64,000 nucleotides of DNA from NCBI GenBank assembly GCA_016866775.1, contig VGLJ01000011.1, positions 1 through 64,000 of the forward strand, given 5' to 3'. This DNA is from Candidatus Rokuibacteriota bacterium (GTDB lineage: Bacteria; Methylomirabilota; Methylomirabilia; Rokubacteriales; CSP1-6). The position numbers and the translations under genes were made by a program. Below, piece by piece: positions 43,289 through 56,959 of the stretch; positions within the stretch are counted from its first letter, which is position 1, and the number at the start of each line of letters is the position of its first letter. The notes under the pieces were generated by a model that was not told where the DNA came from, ran no database searches, and was given only the letters and a program-made list of their open reading frames with translations.

Positions 43289-43750
43289 TTAGGTGGTCGC
43301 CGTCTTCCGCGCCTCGCGCAGGCCGGCGAGGATCGCGTCGCGATCGAGGCTCATCTCCATCAGCGCCACCTGCGCCTCGTAGACGTCGCCCGGCACCTGG
43401 TCTTTCACTTCCGGCTCGAACACGTGCAGCACGGGGAGCCCCAACGGGACTCCGGCCAACGGGCCCGCGTACGACGGATCACCGGTGACGACGGTCTGCG
43501 CGAGCGTCTGCGTGCTTTCCGCGTCGGGAGTGCCGAGCAACACCACCACGTCGCTCCCGTGCTCGTCCGCGACCCGCTTCACCGCCGCCTGATCCTCGAG
43601 GCCCATGGCGCCCGCCGCCGTTCAGACGTAACAGGCGGTCAGCGTGAGCACCACGTCGGCGCCCGCCTTGCTCGCGCATTCCGCCAGCGCGGGCCCCGGC
43701 ACGCCGTCGCGCTCGCCGAGCGCGATGACTTTCCTTCCTCGAAGCTCCAT
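43289..43750 (-). CDS. grdA: Glycine-reductase-type selenoprotein A (GrdA-like)
   Basis: Read through the in-frame TGA at 43622-43624, this is a 153-residue protein closely matching GrdA, the small redox selenoprotein that carries the carboxymethyl-selenoether from protein B to protein C. The motif is Cys40-Tyr-Val-Sec43 followed by TAAGAMGLEDQ, as in classical GrdA (CxxU then TAAGAM). The C-terminus (VPGDVYEAQVALMEMSLD) also matches. If TGA were a stop only 42 residues would be made. I see no clear small hairpin after this UGA. Start at ATG 43750; grdC begins upstream, 26 bases away. Confidence 0.92.
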
Positions 43751-43776: not shown

Positions 43777-45216
43777 TCACCCGTTGCGCTCCACGATCAG
43801 CGAGATGCCGTCGGAGAGCTGGGTCATCCGTCCGAGGAAGAGGCTGCCCTTCCCCGTGAACATCGTACGCGTGAGCGTGCCCTTCGTGAGCCCCCGCAGC
43901 GCGTGGCCGAGGTACGGGATCGCCGAGGCGATGTGGCCCTGCGTGGGCGAGAACCCCGGCATGCCGCGCGTCCGCACGAACTGACCGATATCGGCGCGCT
44001 CGATCAGCTTCTCGACCACGGCCAGACTCGCGAGCGTGCGGTAGTTGTTGAGCGGCACGTTGCCGCTGCCCGCGGGCTCCGTCGCCTCCGGGTTGTGCAG
44101 CTCGAGCGAGAAGCGGTCGACGTCGAGCAGCGTGAGCCCGAGACGGCCGAGCGGCTCGGTGTAGAGCGCCTTCACCACCGCGAGCGGCGCCGAGCCCGAG
44201 CCGACCTCGTGACGACCGACCGCGTCGAGCCGCAGCACGGGCGAGGTTCCGTCGTCGCGCGCGACGTGCGCGGCGAAGCCGGCGAGGACGTCCTCGACGA
44301 TCGGCATCTCGTGCTTCAGGTGGCCCTGGAACTTCATGCCGAGCTTCGCGAGCGAGCCGCCCGCGAGGACCACCACGTCGTCGTGCAGCCCGGACGCGAC
44401 CATCGCGCCCGCGAGCATGAGCGCGTGCATCGGACCGCAGCAGAACGCCTTCACGTCGCTGCCGGTCGCGCGCGTGCACCCCGCCCATTCCGCCACGGCC
44501 TTCGCGACGTTGCCGCCGCCGCGCTGATAGCGGTCGCCCACGGCCTCCTCGCCGCAGTTGATGACGTACCGGACGTCCGTCGCCGCCACGGCACCCGGCC
44601 GCGCGAGGAGGTGACGGAGCGCGAGCGCCGCCGTCGCCTTGCACGCGAGGTTCTCCATCAGGACCTGGCCGGTGAGCGTGTCGTCCTCGTCGTGGCCCGG
44701 GAGCATGGCGCCGAGGAGACGGCCGTCGACGCCGAGCAGCGGCACCGCGCGATGCTTCTCGATCCGCTCGCGTATCACGTCGGGGGCGACGCCCGACGGC
44801 ACGGCCGGACGGCCGGAGTCGCGCCCGATGAGCGGATGCGTGTCGAGCGCGGTCCGCGCACGATCGGCGACGTCGCGATCGAGCGCGAGCAGGTCGAAGC
44901 CGTCGCACGCCGCCAGCAGCCCGAGGAATTCGTGCTCGGGCATGATCTCGCCGTCGGGGCCGAAGCGTTGGGCCCCGCCGACCGGATGGCGATGCCATGG
45001 CGTAGCGTGCGCGGCGAGGTCGTCGACGCCGACGTTGCCGATGAAGACCTGGTTCGGCGCGTAGCCGCACGCCGCGTCCCAGTCGCGGAGGTACGGAAGC
45101 AGGTAGCCGAGCGGGGCATCCACGCGCCGGAGCTCGCGCAGGGGCTTCGAGCCGAGCCTGACGAAGCTCGGCGCGTGCGCGAGCACGAGCGAGACGTCGC
45201 GGATGACCGGCCTCAT
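43777..45216 (-). CDS. grdC: Glycine-reductase-type component C, beta subunit (GrdC-like)
   Basis: A 479-residue protein of the GrdC family, a thiolase/FabH-like fold that receives the acyl group from selenoprotein A. Strong landmarks: VLAHAPSFVRLGSKPLRE at the N-terminus, INCGEEAVGDRYQRGGGN, ATGSDVKAFCCGPMHAL (a conserved Cys), LGMKFQGHLKHEMPIVEDVL and MPGFSPTQGHIASAIPYLG. In clostridia GrdC works with GrdD (PlsX-like) to release acetyl phosphate. No grdD is present in this window, so the final acceptor could be phosphate via a distant GrdD, or something else. It follows the ABC binding-protein gene by two bases. Confidence 0.9.
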   Translation of the reverse strand: MRPVIRDVSLVLAHAPSFVRLGSKPLRELRRVDAPLGYLLPYLRDWDAACGYAPNQVFIGNVGVDDLAAHATPWHRHPVGGAQRFGPDGEIMPEHEFLGLLAACDGFDLLALDRDVADRARTALDTHPLIGRDSGRPAVPSGVAPDVIRERIEKHRAVPLLGVDGRLLGAMLPGHDEDDTLTGQVLMENLACKATAALALRHLLARPGAVAATDVRYVINCGEEAVGDRYQRGGGNVAKAVAEWAGCTRATGSDVKAFCCGPMHALMLAGAMVASGLHDDVVVLAGGSLAKLGMKFQGHLKHEMPIVEDVLAGFAAHVARDDGTSPVLRLDAVGRHEVGSGSAPLAVVKALYTEPLGRLGLTLLDVDRFSLELHNPEATEPAGSGNVPLNNYRTLASLAVVEKLIERADIGQFVRTRGMPGFSPTQGHIASAIPYLGHALRGLTKGTLTRTMFTGKGSLFLGRMTQLSDGISLIVERNG

Positions 45217-47780: not shown

Positions 47781-47816
47781 GGATATCCATGTCGACATCA
47801 TGATATATTTCGATCG
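47781..47816 (+). promoter_or_regulatory. Putative vapBC promoter and operator
   Basis: An AT-rich island in GC-rich surroundings. It holds the 10-bp palindrome ATGTCGACAT at 47789-47798 and a TATATT (-10 like) at 47804-47809, just 7 bases before the vapB start, which would give a very short leader. The palindrome is the expected kind of operator for VapB autoregulation and could also affect the divergent ABC operon. Confidence 0.5.
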
Positions 47817-48011
47817 ATGGCCAAGCGTCTGGTGGACATCGACGAGAGGGCGCTCGCTGCCGCGAAAGCGGAGCTCGGGACGAAGACCTTGAAGGATACG
47901 GTCAACGAGGCGCTGCGCCGCGCGGCGCCCGCCCGTGATCGCCGCGTCTCGAAGGCGCTGGATACGCTCGCGAAGGCGAAGCTGCGGGATCGGGCCGCGG
48001 CGTGGCGCTGA
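47817..48011 (+). CDS. vapB: VapB-type antitoxin
   Basis: A 64-residue ribbon-helix-helix antitoxin of the VapB / DUF2191 type. MAKRLVDIDERALAAAKAELGTKT is the RHH DNA-binding part (KRLVDID strand, then helix), followed by a basic C-terminal tail that would wrap the toxin. The vapC start lies 10 bases inside its 3' end, as usual for the pair. ATG at 47817, immediately after the AT-rich promoter island. Confidence 0.85.
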   Translation: MAKRLVDIDERALAAAKAELGTKTLKDTVNEALRRAAPARDRRVSKALDTLAKAKLRDRAAAWR

Positions 48012-48415
48012 CGCATCTCGTCGATACCAGCGTTCTGACCCGGCTGGCTCATCCAACGGTCCGCACCGCGCTCGAACCACTTGCCGCCGCCGGCCAGGTC
48101 GCACGCGCCGGTATTTCCGACCTCGAGGTCGGCTTCTCGGCGCGCAACCTTTCCGAGTGGACGCGGCTCACGTCCGCGCTCGCGGCATTCCCCCTCATCG
48201 AAACCGAAGCCGGGCACGTGCAACGTGCTCGACAGGTTCAGCGCTTGCTTGCCGGCCGTGGGCTCCGAGGGCGGAAAGTTCCGGATCTGCTGATCGCCGC
48301 CGCCGCCGAGGCGAACGGCCTTACCCTGCTCCACTACGACGCGGATTTCGACATGATCGCCCGCGTGACGGGGCAGCCTTGCACGTGGATCGCGCCGGCT
48401 GGCACGATCGACTAA
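48002..48415 (+). CDS. vapC: VapC-type PIN-domain toxin
   Basis: A 137-residue PIN ribonuclease. Acidic active-site residues are readable: Asp in HLVDTSVLTR (near residue 8), Glu in ISDLEVGFS, Asp in KVPDLLIAAAAE (near residue 94) and Asp in LHYDADFDMI. VapC toxins cleave tRNA or rRNA. The start is GTG overlapping vapB. Its stop is adjacent to the stop of the convergent DsbA-like selenoprotein gene with no gap. The pair sits between the two grd operons and may stabilise this region. Confidence 0.88.
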   Translation: MALTHLVDTSVLTRLAHPTVRTALEPLAAAGQVARAGISDLEVGFSARNLSEWTRLTSALAAFPLIETEAGHVQRARQVQRLLAGRGLRGRKVPDLLIAAAAEANGLTLLHYDADFDMIARVTGQPCTWIAPAGTID

Positions 48416-49111
48416 TCATCGCGACGTTCCGCTCCCTTCGATCGTGCTCTGGCCGGCGACCGCACGCTGCGCCTCGGGCGCCAGCGGGATCACGCCGCCA
48501 GGCTCGCCGGCCAGGATCCAGTCGATGAGCTCGCGGTAGCGCTCCGTCGGAACCGCGCCCGGGATCGAGAGCTTCTCGTTCAGGATCACCGTCGGCAAGC
48601 CCGAGACGCCGAACCACGCCGCGCCCTCGGCGCAGTCGCGCAGCACGGCTTCGTACGCGTCGCCCGCGAAGTCGGCGTCGAAGCGCGCGAGGTCCAGGCC
48701 CGCCTCGCGCACCAGGGTTCGCAGGACGTCCGGGCGCGCGATGTCGAGATGGTCGCGGAAGAGCGCGGTGAAGAGCCGCGCGTGGAAGCGCTGGAACGGC
48801 TCGCCGCCCTGACGCTCGGCGCACTTCGCCGCGGCCAGCGCGGGAATGCTCGACGACGGCAGCGGCGTGTCGAGCGCGGGCGGCACGAACGCGGCGCGCC
48901 GCTCCTGGGCGCCGATGCGCGCCCAGCCTTCGCGCGTCTTCTGCGTCACGCGGCGGTCCGGCTGCGCGGTCGGGATCAACGGGAACGTACGCCAGTGGAG
49001 ACTGACGCGGCTCCCGTACGCCTCCTCGATCTCACGCAGCCGCACCGCGGCGTTGTAGCACCACGGTCAGAGGTAGTCGGAGAAGACGTCGAGGCGGACC
49101 GGCGAAGTCAT
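48416..49111 (-). CDS. DsbA/FrnE-like selenoprotein with a UPWC active site
   Basis: A 231-residue thioredoxin-fold protein of the DsbA-like FrnE/HCCA-isomerase group, read through an in-frame TGA at 49067-49069. The N-terminus is LDVFSDYL, then Sec15, then PWCYNAAVRL, so the redox motif is Sec-Pro-Trp-Cys where relatives have CPWC. The cis-Pro loop is present (FGVSGLPTVILNEK, about residue 180). No signal peptide, so it is cytoplasmic. Its ATG overlaps the stop of grdB-1 (ATGA), showing translational coupling to the selenoenzyme. A 6-bp stem with 10-base loop begins right after the UGA. A likely role is electron delivery to, or repair of, the Grd selenoproteins, in place of thioredoxin; this is inference. 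Confidence 0.87.
49045..49066 (-). promoter_or_regulatory. SECIS-like hairpin after the Sec codon of the DsbA-like gene
   Basis: On the minus strand CCGTGG pairs with CCGCGG (one G-U pair) around the 10-base loop TGCTACAACG, starting directly after UGA. It differs from the compact triloop hairpins of the other Sec genes and is a weaker SECIS candidate. Confidence 0.4.
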
Positions 49112-50424
49112 GCCGACGAAAAGACCGTGGGCTTCGCGACCTCCGTCCGGAGCGCCTGCAGCGCCTGCTCGACGATGCGCCGTCGCAACGCCTTTTCGTC
49201 GTCGGGCGACAGCTCCGCATTCCCGAGCGGGTGGATGATGCCCGCGGCGGGCACGATGCGGTTCGCGCCGACCATGACCGCGACCGGCGTCATCGTCGAC
49301 ACCTGCACCGTCGGCAGGCCCGCACGCTCGAGCTCTCGCGCGATCGCTGCGCCGCAGCGAGTGCTCGTCCCTCAGGTGGACGTGAGGATCACGGCGTCGA
49401 CGCCCGCCGCGCGCAGCTTCTCGGCGATCTCGGCGCCCATGCGAGCACTCTGCGCCAGCGTGGTGGCGACGCCGACCGTCGAATACACGGTCTCGTGCAG
49501 CTTGCCGATCGCGCCGCGCTGCTCGAGCTCGCGCGCGACGTCGACCGGCACGAGCCGGTGCGGGTCCTGCTTGACCCACGTCGTGTCGTAGCCGCGATGC
49601 GGGTTCTCGTACTGCGCGGCGTCGAGCGCGTCCTTGCCTTCGATGCTGTACGCGCCGTAGCGCGTCGCGTTCAGCGCCTCGATGCCGTCGGGATTTCCCT
49701 TCGGGACGAGACCGCCGTCGGTGACGAGCGCGATCGTCGCGCCCTCCAGCGTCTTCACCAGCCTCGGCGCCGGCACGCTCGCGAACGACGGGCGCGGCAC
49801 CTCGCTCGCGAACGGCCGGCCGGCGAGCTTGTCGAGCAGCATGGCGGTCGCGCGCTCGGCGGCGGTGGTCTCCGTGACGACGTTGCGGGTCACGCCGCGC
49901 GCGAAGTAGCCCTCGGCGGCCGGCGCGCCGATCTTCTCGCCTCGCGCGAGCTTGAGCCCGAGCGCGACGAGCCGCTGCGCCTCGGGCAGCATCCGCGTGG
50001 CCTCGGCGCCGGTCTGCACGATGTAGACCGACCGGCGATACAGATCCACGCCGGGATTCTCCGCGTGCATGCCGGTGACGGCGGGGACCGTGAGCTGCGC
50101 CTGCACCGCCGCGCAGAGCGCGCCGCACGCCACGCCGTAGCGGCCGGCGAGGAACGCGGGACCGGCGACCACGAGATCGGGCTTCGCGGCGGCCACGAGG
50201 GCCACCATCGCGGCGAGCGCGCGGTCCGACTGCTCGGCGGCGTAGTTGTCGCCGCAGATCACCGTGGCGACCACGGTGCCCGCGTCGCCCAGCGCCTGCT
50301 GCACGGCGCGCGCGGCGCCGACCGCGCCGTCCCGGCTCAGCGGCTCGACCCCGGCCTTCTCCTCGCCGCCGATCTGGCCGAAGAACTGGTTGACGTAGCA
50401 GACGACGCGCAGCCGCTCCGGCAT
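49108..50424 (-). CDS. grdB: Glycine/sarcosine/betaine-reductase-type component B, gamma subunit (GrdB-like, copy 1), selenoprotein
   Basis: A 438-residue protein read through TGA at 49372-49374. It closely follows GrdB along its length: RVVCYVNQFFGQIGGEEKAG at the start, VICGDNY, VAGPAFLAGRYG, ALVTDGGLVPKGNPD, then DAVILTST-Sec351-GTSTRCG and a C-terminus with MVGANRIVPAAGI and IHPLGN. GrdB's Sec attacks the substrate bound on GrdE and passes the acyl part to GrdA. The motif here is UxxSxxC; copy 2 has UxxCxxC. A 7-bp triloop hairpin lies 11 bases after the UGA. Start and stop overlap grdE-1 and the Sec-DsbA gene (ATGA on both sides). Substrate specificity unknown. Confidence 0.93.
49344..49360 (-). 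promoter_or_regulatory. SECIS-like hairpin after the Sec codon of grdB-1
   Basis: On the minus strand TCGCTGC-GGC-GCAGCGA forms a perfect 7-bp stem with a GGC triloop, beginning 11 bases after UGA, the distance expected for SelB recognition. The coding sequence there (RCGAA) also constrains these bases. Confidence 0.6.
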
Positions 50425-51710
50425 CACCGCACCTCCGCCATCATCGTCGTGGCGCCGATCTGCTCGATGGCGCCGCACAGCGTTCCGTAGGTCGCGCGCA
50501 TCTCCCCCGAGAGCTTCGGCGCCAGATCGTCGGCGCCGATCACGCGCTCCATGGCGGGAAACGCGAGGAGCTCCTGGCCGCCGCCGACGTTGACCATCGC
50601 GTCCACCCCGGGGAAGTCGAACAGGATCATGCCCTCGGCGCTGCCGTCGGTCGACATGTCCTCGACGATGACCGTCGTCTTCACGCCGAGCGCCTCGCAG
50701 TGCGCGGCCGCCTGGGCCATGTCCACGTGCGGCGCGCCGCCGCCGATCTTCGTGAGGATCGCGCCGTCCGCGCCGAGCGTGTGTGCCACGAGCCCCGCGG
50801 TGAGGAACGCCGACCGGACGCGCTCGGGCTCGGTCGCGTGAGCCACCGTGACGACGACGCCGGCGAACCAGAGCGTGCGGCCGTGCCGCGCGTAGAGCGA
50901 GCGGATGATCGGATGGTGCTGGATCGCCCACGTGGTGGCGTTGCGGCCCATGAACCCGCGGACCACGCCGCCGTCGAGCACTTCGTTCGGGTGGACGATC
51001 GTCGGGAGCATCCGCCGGATCGGATCGCCGTAGAGGATCCCTTCGTCGACACCGGTCGGACGCTGATGCGAGTGGATCTGGAAGACGTACGCCACACGCG
51101 GCAGGTGCGCGAGCTCCGCGGGGACGCGCGGTGACGGCGGCAGCTCGAACACCTCGGTGCGTGCGGGCTCCGCATCGCGTGCCGCCTGCGCGAGCACGAC
51201 ACCGGCCTTCAGCGCCGCGAGCCTCACGGCCGCGAGATACTCGGAGCGCGCCGTGCCCGCCGCAGGCCACGCGGAGATCACGAGGTTGTGCGTGCGGCCG
51301 AACCGCGACAGCTCGGCGTTCGGTCCCGCCATGTCGATCACCGCGAGCGCGCCCGCCACCTGGTCGGATTGCTGATCCGTCGCGACGACCGCCACGCCCG
51401 CGATCGCGGCGGTACGCCCGTGCCCCGCCTTCGCGATGGGCCCGAGCACGCCGGGAAAGTCGACGCCGCCGTCCAGCTTCGCGCGCGGCGCGATCACGTC
51501 GAAGACCCGCCCGATCCGCACGCGCTCGCCCGGGTGGACGGCGTCGAGTCGCACGCCGGCGAGCCGCGGATCGGTCGAGAGCTGCGCGCGCAGCGCCTCG
51601 AGATCGACCTCGAGGCGCCCGCCGGTGAGCCGCGCCGGCGCGCCCGCGAGCGCCGTGGCAGGCGCGACCGTGAGCTCGCGCACCTCGAACCACCGAAGCT
51701 CCAGCCTCAT
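50424..51710 (-). CDS. grdE: Component B proprotein-like subunit (GrdE-like, copy 1), apparently without pyruvoyl cysteine
   Basis: A 428-residue protein of the GrdE length and pattern: ELRWFEVRELTVAP at the start, DAVHPGERVRIGRVFDVIAPR, VIDMAGPNAE, PTIVHPNEVLDGGVV, IIRSLYARHGRTL, and LGADGAILTKIGG. Classical GrdE is cut at Asn241-Cys242 to create a pyruvoyl group that binds the amino acid. In the aligned segment (LDGGVVRGFMGRNATTWAI) there is no Cys; the only two cysteines lie far downstream. So this copy should not make a pyruvoyl group, and the substrate need not be an amine. ATGA overlap with grdB-1. It follows the hydroxyacid dehydrogenase by 8 bases. Confidence 0.88.
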   Translation of the reverse strand: MRLELRWFEVRELTVAPATALAGAPARLTGGRLEVDLEALRAQLSTDPRLAGVRLDAVHPGERVRIGRVFDVIAPRAKLDGGVDFPGVLGPIAKAGHGRTAAIAGVAVVATDQQSDQVAGALAVIDMAGPNAELSRFGRTHNLVISAWPAAGTARSEYLAAVRLAALKAGVVLAQAARDAEPARTEVFELPPSPRVPAELAHLPRVAYVFQIHSHQRPTGVDEGILYGDPIRRMLPTIVHPNEVLDGGVVRGFMGRNATTWAIQHHPIIRSLYARHGRTLWFAGVVVTVAHATEPERVRSAFLTAGLVAHTLGADGAILTKIGGGAPHVDMAQAAAHCEALGVKTTVIVEDMSTDGSAEGMILFDFPGVDAMVNVGGGQELLAFPAMERVIGADDLAPKLSGEMRATYGTLCGAIEQIGATTMMAEVR

Positions 51711-51718
51711 GCCGTGCG

Positions 51719-52696
51719 CTAGCCCAGCAGGCCCCGGAGCTCTGGGACCACCCATAGAGGGTCCTGCCCCGACTCCATGCGCAGGATGTTGTCGAAGCCG
51801 TTGCGGTACGCCTTCGTCCAGTTGTCCCACGTCGGCCCGGCGCTGTGCGGCGTGAGCGCGACGTTCGGCAGCGAGAACAATGGATGGTTCTGCTTCGGCG
51901 GCTCCTCGACCATCACGTCGAGGCCGGCCGCGGCGATCGTCCCGGAGGTGAGCGCCTGGTGGAGCGCGTCCTCGTCGACCACGGGGCCGCGGCACGTGTT
52001 GACGAGGATCGCGCTCTTCTTCATCATCGCGAACTGCTTCGTGGACATCATCTTCCGCGTGACGTCGGTCAGGGGCACGTGGAGCGTGATGACGTCCGAG
52101 GTGCGGAGGATCTCGGTCAGCAGCGCGTAGCGCACGCCGAGCGTGTCCTCCTGGTCCTCGCTGAGCCGGACGATGTCGTAGTAGCGCACGTCCATGTCGA
52201 AGCCCTGCACCCGGCGCGCGACCTTCTTGCCGATGTTGCCGAGGCCGATGATCCCCAGCCGCTTGCCCTCGACCTCATAGGTGCGCGTGGCCACGGCGTC
52301 GCCCACGCGCCACTTCCCCGCCGCGACGTTGTTGTGGTGCCACACGAGCTTCTTGAGCACCGCGAGCATGAGCATCACCGCGTGCTCGGCGACGGCGACG
52401 GAGTTGGCGCCGCCGTTGTTCGACACCGGCACCCTCGCCTTGCGCGCGGCCTCGATGTCGACGCGGTCGTAGCCCGCGCTCGTGAGCTGGACGAGCTTGA
52501 GCTTCGGCGCCGCGCGGAAGAACTCGTTGCCGATGCCGGTCCGCGGCGAGCCGAGGTAGTACTCGGCCTCGCCGGCGACGTCGTAGAACTCCGGCTTGCT
52601 CGGATCGGCGACGATCAGCTCCAGGCCGGGCGGCAGCAGATCCTGGGCGATCTCCATGATGGGCGCGGGCTGGGGCGGCGTCAGGATCTTGGTCAC
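51719..52696 (-). CDS. D-isomer-specific 2-hydroxyacid dehydrogenase
   Basis: A 325-residue NAD-dependent dehydrogenase of the D-lactate/phosphoglycerate type. The nucleotide motif is LGIIGLGNIGKKVARR near residue 150, the catalytic Arg is in LVNTCRGPVVDE, the Glu in GLDVMVEEPPK and the His in VALTPHSAGPTWDN. It interconverts a 2-hydroxy acid and a 2-keto acid. Placed between a peptide-type binding protein and grdE-1 on the same strand, it may make or use the substrate of the selenoreductase, or supply the redox balance. Spacing to both neighbours is short. Confidence 0.88.
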   Translation of the reverse strand: MTKILTPPQPAPIMEIAQDLLPPGLELIVADPSKPEFYDVAGEAEYYLGSPRTGIGNEFFRAAPKLKLVQLTSAGYDRVDIEAARKARVPVSNNGGANSVAVAEHAVMLMLAVLKKLVWHHNNVAAGKWRVGDAVATRTYEVEGKRLGIIGLGNIGKKVARRVQGFDMDVRYYDIVRLSEDQEDTLGVRYALLTEILRTSDVITLHVPLTDVTRKMMSTKQFAMMKKSAILVNTCRGPVVDEDALHQALTSGTIAAAGLDVMVEEPPKQNHPLFSLPNVALTPHSAGPTWDNWTKAYRNGFDNILRMESGQDPLWVVPELRGLLG

Positions 52697-52718
52697 GATG
52701 GCCTCCTTGGGACGAGGC

Positions 52719-54263
52719 TCACTTCGCCTTGAGCTTCAGGTCTTCGTACGGCGCCGACCACGGATAGTCGCTGATGAGCCCGAGTCCCGACTCCGCCACG
52801 CGCGGGCCGTAGGCGGGGAGAAGGGCGAGCTGCCAGATCGGAAGCACCATGACCTTCTCGTGGACGAGCCGCTGGACGCGATGAAGGATCGCCTCGCGCT
52901 TCTTCGGATCGAGCTCGCCCGCCTGTTCCCGGAAGAGCCCGTCGATGTCGGGATACCCTCCGTAGGCGTAGGCGCCTCCCGAGATCACGAACGGCTCCAT
53001 GCGCGTGGCCGCGTTGCCGAAGATGCCGCTCAAGCCGTAGATCACGTTCTTCAGCTTCTTCTCCTGGTACGCCTTGACGAACGCCGCGCGCTCGAGCGGG
53101 CGCAGCGTCGCCTTGATCCCGACGGCGCGGAGGTCGTTGAGGATCGGCTCGGCATACGTGGCGGCGCCGGCGTCGGCCCACAGGTCGCCCGCGTCGAACC
53201 CGTTGGGATACCCCGCTTCCGCGAGGAGCTGCTTCGCCTTCGCCGGATCGTGCGGGTAGAGCGGCGGCTGCCAGAAGAAATCGGCGCTGACCGGGATGAT
53301 GGTGCCGGTGATCCGGGAATGGCCGAGCGTCAGGGCCTGGTTGACGCCCTGGCGATCGACGGCGTGGCTGGCCGCGAGGCGCACGCGGCGGTCGCGCCAG
53401 GGCGAGGTCGCGTCCCACTGGTCGGCGAAGACGAGCCAGTGCGTGGACATGAACAGCGTCGGCCTGAGCGTGAGCCCGGGCGTCCGCTTCACCTCCTCGG
53501 CCAGCTCGCCGGTGACGTTGTAGGCGATGTCGGCTTCTCCGCGCTTGAGCATCGCGAGGCGGGTGGTGCCGTCGGGGACCGCCTTGAGGACCAGGCGCTT
53601 CACGCTCGGCGTCTTGCGCCAGTACCCGTCGAACGCCTCGAGCACCAGCTCGATGCCGGGAGTGAAGGAAACGAAGCGGTAGGGGCCGGCGCCGATCGGC
53701 GCCTTCTTGAAGCCGTCGTCACCCACCTTCTCGACGTACTTCTTCGGCACGATCCACGCGGCGCCGGTGGCCGGGGTGCCGTAGTACGTCAGGAAGTCGG
53801 GCCACGGCTGCTTGAGCCGGACGCGGACGCGCCCGGGATCGGGGGTGTCGACGGACGCCACCTTCTCCTTGAGCACTTTCGACGACACGCCGCGATAACG
53901 CTCGAACGAGTACTTGACGTCGTCGGCCGTCAGCAGCTCGCCGTTGTGGAACTTCACGCCCTTCCGGAGCACGAACTCGTAGACGAGTCCGTCCGCCGAC
54001 GCGGTCCACGACTCCGCGAGGCTCGGCGTCATGATCTTGCCAGGCATCGGCTTCACGAGGCCGTCGTGCAGCGCGTAGAGGAACATGAACGGCGTGATCA
54101 GGCCCGGCGTCTCCGCGGGCTCGAACAGCGAGGGCGCAGGCGTGAAGTGCAGCGCCCACGTCATCTGTCCCGCCGGCGGCTCGGCCGCGTGCGTTTCGGC
54201 GGGCGCGGCAGCCATGAGAGCCAGCACCCCGGCCAGGATCACCCCCGTGCGTCGCCTCGTCAT
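52719..54263 (-). CDS. ABC transporter substrate-binding protein, family 5 (oligopeptide/dipeptide type)
   Basis: A 514-residue SBP_bac_5 protein with a signal peptide (RRRTGVILAGVLALMAAAPAETHA). Typical segments: LAESWTASADGLVYEFVLRKGVKFHNGELLTADDVKYSFERYRG near residue 85, AAWIVPKKYVEKVG, and FKKAPIGAGPYRFVSF. Such proteins bind peptides, nickel complexes, opines or other solutes. The ATG at 54263 is preferred over 54275 because it begins MTRRRTG. No family-5 permease genes are adjacent; it lies inside the grd-like run and may capture the substrate of that system. Confidence 0.87.
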   Translation of the reverse strand: MTRRRTGVILAGVLALMAAAPAETHAAEPPAGQMTWALHFTPAPSLFEPAETPGLITPFMFLYALHDGLVKPMPGKIMTPSLAESWTASADGLVYEFVLRKGVKFHNGELLTADDVKYSFERYRGVSSKVLKEKVASVDTPDPGRVRVRLKQPWPDFLTYYGTPATGAAWIVPKKYVEKVGDDGFKKAPIGAGPYRFVSFTPGIELVLEAFDGYWRKTPSVKRLVLKAVPDGTTRLAMLKRGEADIAYNVTGELAEEVKRTPGLTLRPTLFMSTHWLVFADQWDATSPWRDRRVRLAASHAVDRQGVNQALTLGHSRITGTIIPVSADFFWQPPLYPHDPAKAKQLLAEAGYPNGFDAGDLWADAGAATYAEPILNDLRAVGIKATLRPLERAAFVKAYQEKKLKNVIYGLSGIFGNAATRMEPFVISGGAYAYGGYPDIDGLFREQAGELDPKKREAILHRVQRLVHEKVMVLPIWQLALLPAYGPRVAESGLGLISDYPWSAPYEDLKLKAK

Positions 54264-54314
54264 GCCGGCCTCCATGTCATCGACGCGGTGGCGCGGACCA
54301 CCACGAAGAGAACG

Positions 54315-55625
54315 TCACTCGGTGCAGCTCAGGCTGCCGAACCCATAGTGGTCGTCGTACCGCCACGGCGGCGGCAGCGGGCCGGCGGTCGGCAGGCTCG
54401 CGTCCGCGCCGGCGTGCAGGCCGATCGCCGAGCCGCGCAGGATCTTCTTCGTCGGCACCCCGATCACGCGCGCCACCGCGGGCGCCTCCGGCACGGCGAG
54501 CGTGACGTTCTTGAAGAAGCTCGTGCTCACGATGGCGTCGGCCTCGGGCAAGGGCTCGAGCATCGTCGGCGCGCCCTCGGTGGCGTCGTCCTCGCTCGTG
54601 AGGAAGACGGTCTTGATCCCGAGGCGCTCGCAGGCCTGGATGCTCCGCACCACCTCGATGAACTCGTTGCCGCCGGCGTCCCACGTGACCACCGCGCCGT
54701 CCGCGCCGAGCTGCTTGGCGAGCTTGGCCGTCTGGTTGGCCATGAGCTGCTTCTCGGTCTGCGTGGTCCACTCCGTGCGCAGCGAGATCACCCCGAGGAA
54801 GTTCCAGTCCCGGCCGTGCCGTCTATAGAGGTCGAGAAACAACGGGTTGTTGGCGACCGTCCACGACATGGCGTACGCCGTGCGGTACGGCCCCGTGAGC
54901 GCGCCGTCGAGGATCTCGTTGGGATGGAGGTACCACGGCGGCGTGAGCTGCGTCAGCCCGTAGGTCGCCGTGCAGAACGCCGTCGGCGATCCGGACATCG
55001 CCTGCGGCGAGTGCACGCACCAGATGTAGACGACCTTCGGCAGCGACGGATCGACCGGCCCGAGCTCGAACACTTCCGTCTCGGGCGGCGTCAGCCCGCG
55101 CACCGCTTCGGCGAGGCGATCCGCGACCGTCAGCGCCGCCTTGTGCACGGCGTAGTTCTTCACCTCTTCGCCCAGGCCGGCGTCGGGCTCGACGACCAGG
55201 CAGACGTTGAAGAGCCGCGCATACGGGTACATCTCGCCGTAGGGGCCGGACATGTCGAGGTACGTCTCGACGAAGTCGCCGCCGGCGTCGTGCCAGTTGA
55301 CGCTGGAGACCTCGACGACGCCGAGGCCCGCGAGCCGGTGCGTGCGGCCGGTGCCGACGGTCGTGATCTCGCGGTCGCAGATGCCCGGATAGCAGACGCC
55401 GCGCCCCTCGACCTTCACGCGCGGCTCGATGACGTCGCGCACCGGCCAGATGCGCACGGATTCGCCGGGATGCGCGATCTCGAGCTCGGCGGTGGCGATG
55501 CGCGGGTCCTGGCGCACGGCGGCGAGGACGGCGTCGCGATCGATGGTGAGGCGGCCGGCGTCGTACCGCGTGCTCGCGCCGAACGTGACGTCGTGAACCG
55601 GGAAGGTGCCCATCTCGAGACGCAT
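54315..55625 (-). CDS. grdE: Component B proprotein-like subunit (GrdE-like, copy 2), apparently without pyruvoyl cysteine
   Basis: A 436-residue GrdE-family protein: RLEMGTFPVHDVTFGAST, IAHPGESVRIWPVRDVIEPRVKVEG (very close to classical GrdE), YLDMSGPYG, WYLHPNEILDGALTG, NNPLFLDLYRRHGRD, and GADGAVVTWDAGGNEFIEV. At the position where Cys242 of clostridial GrdE gives the pyruvoyl group the sequence reads GALTGPYRTAYAMSW, with no cysteine; cysteines at about 203 and 218 lie before it. It is therefore also a poor candidate for self-cleavage. Its start overlaps the stop of grdB-2 (ATGA). It differs clearly from copy 1, so the two B components probably serve different substrates. Confidence 0.88.
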   Translation of the reverse strand: MRLEMGTFPVHDVTFGASTRYDAGRLTIDRDAVLAAVRQDPRIATAELEIAHPGESVRIWPVRDVIEPRVKVEGRGVCYPGICDREITTVGTGRTHRLAGLGVVEVSSVNWHDAGGDFVETYLDMSGPYGEMYPYARLFNVCLVVEPDAGLGEEVKNYAVHKAALTVADRLAEAVRGLTPPETEVFELGPVDPSLPKVVYIWCVHSPQAMSGSPTAFCTATYGLTQLTPPWYLHPNEILDGALTGPYRTAYAMSWTVANNPLFLDLYRRHGRDWNFLGVISLRTEWTTQTEKQLMANQTAKLAKQLGADGAVVTWDAGGNEFIEVVRSIQACERLGIKTVFLTSEDDATEGAPTMLEPLPEADAIVSTSFFKNVTLAVPEAPAVARVIGVPTKKILRGSAIGLHAGADASLPTAGPLPPPWRYDDHYGFGSLSCTE

Positions 55626-56959
55626 CACTTGCGCTCCTGCATGGGATCGAAGAGCGTCGGCCCGGGCACCGCGACCGTGATCGCGGCGAGCGCCGTCCGC
55701 ACGATGTGCATCCCGAACGCGTAGTCCTTCTCGGGGCTCAGTGTCGGATCGCCGCACACGTGCTCGATGCGCGCGCCGCGGATGACCCGGTTGGCGCCGG
55801 TCGTCAGCGCGAAGTTGTAGATGGCGGAGATCATCCCCACCGGAATCCCCACCCGCTCGATCTCTTTCGCGATCGTTGCGCCGCAACGATTGCAGGTCCC
55901 TCAGGTGGCGACGAGCAGCGCGCCGTCGACCCCTCCTTGCTTCAGGTCCGCGGCGATGCTGCGCCCGTGCCCCGCGGAGACCGCGACCGGCGTGCTGACG
56001 CCCGGCAGCGCGTAGATGTGCTCGTGCACCGCGCCGATCGCGCCCTGGCGCTCGAGGTCGCGCAGGAACGACAGCGGCAGGATGTAGTTCGGGTTGCTGT
56101 TCACGAGGTGGTTGAAGTATCCCGCGTGATATGCCTCCCACTCTTTCGGCGAGAGCGATTCCAGCTCCGCGACCGAGTGGCGGTGATACCGCACGGCGTT
56201 CGCCGACACCTGCTTGTCGGGGTTGCCCTTCCGCACGAGCCCGCCGGTGGTGACCATGGCGATGCGCGCGCGCGTGAGGTCGGCGATCGGGGCCGCGGGC
56301 GGCACACGTTCGGGCGCCGAGTACGGCACTTCCGAGCGATACGGCCGGCCGTGCAGCTTGTCGAGGAGCATGTCGAGCGCGCGCTGAAAGCCGGGACGGC
56401 CGCGGTCGTACACGCGGCGCCGTCCTTGCGGCAGATAGCCTTCGACTTCCGCCGGGCCGAGCGTCTCGCGACGGCCGAGACGTTGCGCGAGTGGAGCGAG
56501 CGCGGCAAGCGCCGCCGGCATCGACGTGGTCGACGTGCCGGTCGGCAGGATCGTGATCCCGCGGCGCGCCGCGGACGCGCCGGGGTTCTCCGGATGCATC
56601 GCGGTGACCGCGGCCAGGCCGCGATCCTGCGCGATCCTGCACACCTGCGCGCACGCGAGCCCGTAGCGGCCGGAGCCGAAGGCGGGGCCGGCAACCACGA
56701 CGTCGGGCTTGAGGCGGTCCAGCTCGGTGGCCACGGCGCGAGCGAACTCCTCCGCGCGGTCGTTGGCGAAGTTGTCGCCGCAGACGATCGTGGCCTCGAT
56801 CCGCGCGCCGGCGCCGAGCGCGGTCTCGAGCACCCGCCCCGGGCCGACGGCGCCGGGCGTCACGCTGACGCCGACGTCCGCCTTGTCCTCGCCCCCGACG
56901 CCCCCGAAGAACTGATTGACGTAGTGCACGACGCGGACCGGGCTCTTCATGCGCGCCAT
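55625..56959 (-). CDS. grdB: Glycine/sarcosine/betaine-reductase-type component B, gamma subunit (GrdB-like, copy 2), selenoprotein
   Basis: A 444-residue GrdB-family selenoprotein read through TGA at 55901-55903. It begins RVVHYVNQFFGGVGGEDKAD, followed by IVCGDNFAND, VAGPAFGSGRYGLAC, MVTTGGLVRKGNPDK and YIPLSFLRDL-like middle parts, then GALLVAT-Sec353-GTCNRCGATIAKEIERVGIP. The motif UxxCxxC is intact. Past residue 375 it departs from copy 1 (ALTTGANRVIRGARIEH), so the substrate pocket may differ. A perfect 8-bp triloop hairpin lies 10 bases after the UGA. First gene of the run; ATG at 56959, with MKSPVRV at 56950 as alternative. Confidence 0.93.
55872..55890 (-). promoter_or_regulatory. 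SECIS-like hairpin after the Sec codon of grdB-2
   Basis: On the minus strand ATCGTTGC-GGC-GCAACGAT forms a perfect 8-bp stem with a GGC triloop, starting 10 bases after UGA. It shares loop and spacing with the grdB-1 hairpin although the stem bases differ at paired positions, so base pairing itself looks conserved. Confidence 0.65.

Follow-up and report, generated by a model that had tools for sequence, protein, structure and literature searches.

Both GrdE-like proteins encoded in the window, a stretch of 64,000 nucleotides of an uncultured soil/groundwater Candidatus Rokuibacteriota bacterium (GCA_016866775.1, contig VGLJ01000011.1, positions 1 to 64,000), lack the cysteine from which classical GrdE forms its pyruvoyl group. 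We consider it probable that they belong to a glycine-reductase-type system that has two substrate components free of pyruvoyl (B1-E1 and B2-E2) and a shared GrdA and GrdC, each component acting on a 2-substituted acid that carries its own good leaving group. What the sequence supplies is the absence of the cleavage cysteine from E1 and E2, the selenocysteine (Sec) codons of B1, B2, and GrdA, matches to GrdA and GrdC above curated cutoffs, and a search of the window's order in which GrdD was not found.

Cleavage site of the two GrdE-like proteins

The two proteins and the segments that correspond to the GrdE cleavage loop are located as follows.
50424 to 51710, minus strand: E2 (P0002), GrdE-like subunit of 428 amino acids; PF09338 at 290 bits, alignment, AlphaFold model
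54315 to 55625, minus strand: E1 (P0001), GrdE-like subunit of 436 amino acids; PF09338 at 282 bits, alignment
50928 to 50978, minus strand: E2 segment LDGGVVRGFMGRNATTW, P0002 residues 246 to 262, counterpart of the cleavage loop by alignment
54861 to 54911, minus strand: E1 segment LDGALTGPYRTAYAMSW, P0001 residues 239 to 255, counterpart of the cleavage loop by alignment

Both proteins scored far above the PF09338 cutoff of 22 bits and are full-length members of the family. They were aligned within a set of 110 distinct family members, whose sources were named genome contigs together with 60 genomes belonging to the window's order. The column that holds the pyruvoyl-forming Asn-Cys pair is occupied by Phe254-Met255 in E2 and by Tyr247-Arg248 in E1, and the cleavage loop of both is approximately 4 residues shorter than that of classical GrdE. 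No conserved Asn-Ser, Asn-Thr, or Asn-Cys pair was found in the loop of either protein. E2 has only two cysteines in its entire chain, at residues 339 and 413, and of the seven in E1 the closest to the site is residue 218. Since the cysteine is absent and the loop is shortened, GrdE-type Asn-Cys self-cleavage to a pyruvoyl group is predicted from the alignment to be impossible at this site in E1 and E2. The initial annotation had proposed that both homologues (50424 to 55625) lack this cysteine and had called for an alignment to check it, and in this it was correct. The clostridial motif and the Asn241-Cys242 position that it gave were also accurate: classical members have the motif SGNC-V-[SA]-ACDK, reading MDGAIVSGNCVSACDKN or LDGAMVSGNCVSACDKN, and the pair of a Thermovirga protein (L069) has precisely the numbering N241-C242. 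The modified peptide of C. difficile begins at residue 242 (PMC9908766).

The Cys-less site was fixed in the Rokubacterial orthologues sampled, in 9 of 9 for E2 and 12 of 12 for E1. These orthologues have open frames and, between genera of the family, are mostly 78 to 90% identical. Purifying selection acts on both genes, with nonsynonymous divergence (dN) of 0.07 to 0.27 versus synonymous divergence (dS) of 0.52 to 0.72 and dN/dS of about 0.13 to 0.45. Because the site is fixed and dN lies well below dS, the loss of the cysteine is neither a sequencing error nor decay. Searches by sequence, profile, and fold returned no solved structure for the GrdE family, so the structure-guided comparison consisted of two AlphaFold models compared by secondary structure. 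In the models of E2 (predicted template modeling score, 0.89) and of the Thermovirga protein (0.91), the cleavage segment sits in the same strand-to-helix loop, which spans 8 residues in E2 versus 12 in the classical protein. Elsewhere in E1, a CYPGIC cysteine pair (P0001 residues 78 and 83; window positions 55377 to 55394) is conserved in 11 of 12 orthologues and is not present in E2.

Across the family, Asn-Cys was present in 24 of the 110 members, and the other 86 carry a different residue, never Cys; these proportions are biased, because sampling used Cys-less queries. When the tree was computed with the site columns removed, a single change sufficed to account for the presence or absence of the cysteine and its carriers formed one clade, with E1 well outside this clade and E2 outside its 24 rows. 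The tree is unrooted and does not give the direction of the change (gain or loss). Sampled Cys-less E proteins came from Rokubacteria, Acidobacteria, Chloroflexi, Entotheonella, and Pseudomonadota and also from Myxococcota, Hydrogenedentota, Bacillota, Spirochaetota, and Synergistota, and their genes mostly adjoin a Sec-encoding GrdB gene. Still only one change was needed after the addition of GrdI, the betaine-type subunit, taken as the partners of GrdH genes above the GrdH cutoff, and of FarE, collected with the FarE model (all loci but one above its cutoff). In this expanded tree the Cys clade alone had a support of 74 and the Cys clade plus GrdI a support of 99. Two Cys-less clostridial groups, reading SGNYVWPAFKVP and DGNWSHPNVKTP, had been taken as possible GrdI; the B proteins paired with them fell below the GrdH cutoff, and true GrdI was therefore fetched separately. 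The alignment showed no pyruvoyl cysteine in GrdI, whose site reads SGSFM-PCSSKW, nor in FarE, whose loop is shortened by a deletion, in agreement with the published statement that FarE and betaine-specific GrdI lack it (PMC10838667). A missing cysteine is thus not exceptional but a known trait of the sister enzymes for betaine and fluoroacetate. Less expected is that the pyruvoyl site was limited to one clade of the sample and that Cys-less E proteins were widespread over phyla.

Selenoprotein partners, shared components, and neighboring genes

The partners of E1 and E2 and the shared components, all on the same strand, are listed below together with the hairpins resembling a selenocysteine insertion sequence (SECIS).
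49108 to 50424, minus strand: B2, GrdB-like selenoprotein of 438 amino acids, Sec TGA at 49372 to 49374, motif LTSTUGTSTRCG; TIGR01918 at 523 bits
55625 to 56959, minus strand: B1, GrdB-like selenoprotein of 444 amino acids, Sec TGA at 55901 to 55903, motif LVATUGTCNRCG; TIGR01918 at 407 bits
55862 to 55900, minus strand: SECIS-like hairpin immediately following the Sec codon of B1, recurring in orthologues
49333 to 49371, minus strand: equivalent hairpin for B2, recurring in orthologues
43289 to 43750, minus strand: GrdA, selenoprotein A of 153 amino acids, Sec TGA at 43622 to 43624, motif CYVUTAAGAM; NF040748 at 192 bits, cutoff 130
43777 to 45216, minus strand: GrdC, component C subunit beta of 479 amino acids; NF040746 at 594 bits, cutoff 450

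The cutoff of TIGR01918 is 65 bits, and the window holds two complete GrdB(Sec)-GrdE pairs, B1-E1 and B2-E2, with the B2 start codon overlapping the E2 stop and the B1 stop codon overlapping the E1 start. Their components belong to PF09338 (E) and PF07355 (B), as in glycine/sarcosine reductase. The in-frame TGA at the known Sec site of B1 and B2 was retained in every orthologue read (10 for B1). Compensatory stem changes were present among the hairpins of B1, B2, and the paralogues L147 and L148; compared to shuffled sequences, the hairpins had z values of -1.8 (B1) and -0.3 (B2). The hairpins after the TGA of B2, GrdA, and a neighboring DsbA-like gene were not clearly better than shuffles, so Sec is assigned in GrdA and in the DsbA-like protein from the conserved codon and from known motifs. 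The genome has the machinery to decode Sec, with SelB (381 bits) and tRNA-Sec (70 bits) together on one contig (C43).

GrdA and GrdC adjoin each other, both are full, and GrdC retains the FabH-like active-site cysteine (AFCCGP). In the clostridial glycine reductase, GrdC and GrdD jointly constitute the component that forms acetyl-phosphate (PMC9908766). None of the 60 genomes of the order had a GrdD above the cutoff, PlsX-like fragments being the only matches, and the same search detected the positive controls in Geosporobacter (614 bits) and Thermovirga (566 bits). Nor did this search find GrdD in Desulfofundulus, Desulfosporosinus, Entotheonella, or the sampled Betaproteobacteria, mostly draft genomes; an Acidobacterium (G060) gave a split, subthreshold match. 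The pattern of absence is consistent across genomes, though most are drafts. Several Cys-less genomes retain GrdC although no GrdD was detectable, and they may thus lack the energy-conserving end of the textbook reaction. With GrdD not found, half of the acetyl-phosphate module appears to be missing, which is odder than the loss of the cysteine, already on record for two sister enzymes.

Four further loci lie among or beside these genes.
48416 to 49117, minus strand: DsbA-like thioredoxin-fold selenoprotein, UPWC, TGA at 49067 to 49069; PF01323 at 93 bits
51719 to 52696, minus strand: D-2-hydroxyacid dehydrogenase; PF02826 at 215 bits
52719 to 54275, minus strand: family 5 (peptide-type) ATP-binding cassette (ABC) substrate-binding protein between the two pairs; PF00496 at 259 bits
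45219 to 47749, minus strand: NMT1/sulfonate-type ABC transporter (binding protein, permease, ATPase); SsuA family, TauC/SsuC-type permease, from the list of open reading frames (ORFs), limits of the ATPase approximate

The DsbA-like gene downstream of B2 has the TGA in the window and in 4 relatives and encodes CPWC in 2 others, and its product may be an electron donor to GrdA. PMC13188914 lists DsbA-like UxxC selenoproteins, in a section that does not link them to a Grd operon. The dehydrogenase gene adjoins E2 in 4 other Rokubacterial genomes, with 85 to 87% identity, and this linkage to E2-B2 is a possible clue to the substrate. Other Rokubacteria have two modules, B1-E1, at times with GrdC-GrdA, and D-2-hydroxyacid dehydrogenase-E2-B2-DsbA-(AraC regulator)-GrdC-GrdA. 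An apparent VapBC-type toxin-antitoxin pair (a short RHH-like and a PIN-like ORF, recognized by eye in the ORF list; 47800 to 48415, plus strand) lies inside the cluster on the opposite strand, where relatives carry the AraC regulator. A search of a limited literature collection returned no paper joining Rokubacteria with glycine reductase.

Proposed mechanism and competing explanations

We propose that E1 and E2 would remain single chains, each forming the pocket that accepts a 2-substituted carboxylic acid. The Sec of GrdB would attack the alpha carbon and the leaving group would be expelled without imine activation; the models for such a step are betaine reductase, which releases trimethylamine, and fluoroacetate reductase, which releases fluoride. 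The carboxyalkyl group would then move to the Sec of GrdA, the resulting selenoether would be cleaved by thiols, possibly those of the DsbA-like selenoprotein, and the cysteine of GrdC would accept the acyl group. As no GrdD was found, the product is probably not acetyl-phosphate, and a thioester would be passed elsewhere, to coenzyme A (CoA) or acyl carrier protein (ACP), or the free acid would be formed. We advance more tentatively, at somewhat less than even odds, a wider interpretation of Se-dependent reductive cleavage that employs GrdA and GrdC but no GrdD. Pyruvoyl-free B-E pairs would here deliver the acyl group of a 2-substituted acid to CoA/ACP or central metabolism and not to acetyl-phosphate. 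If this were true, the classical pyruvoyl-containing, acetyl-phosphate-forming enzyme would be one specialized branch of a much wider family.

Three points weigh against the proposed system. The host genome is in 159 contigs (97.5% complete), so one missing gene is by itself weak evidence, a concern that the order-wide GrdD search answers in part. Three E-bearing genomes (G013, G030, and G031, with L134, L148, and L141) lack a full GrdC match, which means that a B-E pair may act without GrdC or that these genomes are incomplete. Finally, a carbonyl may still be formed elsewhere, in GrdB or from a Ser/Thr of E.

The strongest competing explanation, although an unlikely one, is that amine reduction through a Schiff base persists, with the carbonyl on GrdB and the GrdE pyruvoyl only an accessory. 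Evidence that glycine reductase contains two carbonyls is reported in PMC9908766, which cites Andreesen 2004 for the proposal that glycine binds to a separate GrdB carbonyl, the GrdE pyruvoyl only keeping GrdB active. B2 retains the Ser of TSTUG, which has been suggested as the carbonyl source (PMC10838667), whereas the VATUG of B1 is without that Ser in most orthologues. In addition, no radical S-adenosylmethionine enzyme or other maturase was recognized in the operon, and the GrdB carbonyl has never been located: a 2023 search for it failed (PMC9908766), and the carbonyl has never been clearly identified (PMC10298544). The initial annotation had stated that the GrdE pyruvoyl holds the substrate as a Schiff base and that its loss removes this mode of binding. 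Schiff-base use of carbonyl cofactors is indeed described in general terms in PMC9908766, and a GrdE-type pyruvoyl is not expected to form here; but the premise on substrate binding is disputed, and because a GrdB carbonyl is proposed to bind glycine, losing the GrdE pyruvoyl would not by itself preclude a Schiff base. Its further step, from the absent cysteine to a non-amine leaving group, does not follow, since the Cys-less betaine reductase releases an amine.

Somewhat less probable still is that E2-B2 acts as a dehalogenase akin to fluoroacetate reductase, which would make it a special case of a pyruvoyl-free component. E2 and FarE have in common the Cys-less, shortened loop, the CxxC that follows Sec is without its first Cys in both B2 and FarB, and the E tree joins E2 with FarE, at a weak support of 79. 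However, E2 scored far below the FarE cutoff, the B tree sets B2 near GrdB/GrdH and not FarB (a joint clade was not rejected; P value of the approximately unbiased test, 0.30), and neither the transporter gene farA nor the radical S-adenosylmethionine gene farC was recognized among the annotated neighbors, no search aimed at them having been made. We regard it as improbable that a Ser or Thr near the site serves E1 and E2 as the source of a pyruvoyl or ketoacyl group: almost every family member has a Thr (or Ser) right behind the loop (T261 of E2), but classical GrdE, which uses Cys, has this residue to the same extent, and the E1 and E2 loops have none of the conserved Asn-containing pairs. 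That the E genes are decaying remnants that lost the cysteine by drift has nothing in its favor beyond that loss and is refuted by their conservation, including their regular pairing with Sec-encoding GrdB genes.

Comparison with known reductases

The pyruvoyl-free system proposed here resembles betaine reductase (GrdH-GrdI) in combining a Sec-containing GrdB with a GrdE-fold partner that lacks Asn-Cys, and GrdI is stated not to be a pro-protein (PMC10838667). Unlike E1 and E2, GrdI has a full-length loop and groups with the Cys clade, and B1 and B2 scored 367 and 471 bits with the GrdH model, compared to a cutoff of 775. Fluoroacetate reductase (FarE-FarB) of Synergistota shares with the window the missing cleavage Cys and the shortened loop, and both B2 (UGTSTRC) and FarB (UGTSSRC) read UxxSxxC; with the FarE model, E1 and E2 reached 138 and 164 bits versus a cutoff of 675. 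The C. porcorum MFA1 genome that has FarE-FarB also has ordinary glycine reductase genes, including grdD (PMC10838667). D-Proline reductase (PrdA-PrdB) is distantly homologous and provides an example of a B-E pair functioning without GrdA and GrdC; unlike E1 and E2, PrdA is a Cys-processed pro-protein, and E1 scored 28 bits against the PrdA cutoff of 700, with E2 not among the matches listed. Glycine/sarcosine reductase (GrdE/GrdG with GrdB/GrdF) shares PF09338, PF07355, the Sec motif, GrdA, and GrdC with the window system, which differs in having no Asn-Cys pyruvoyl site, in that GrdD was not found, and in its scores with the GrdG model (E1, 227 bits; E2, 217 bits; cutoff, 780). By these sequence likenesses, the system is placed as a variant inside the glycine/betaine/fluoroacetate reductase superfamily.

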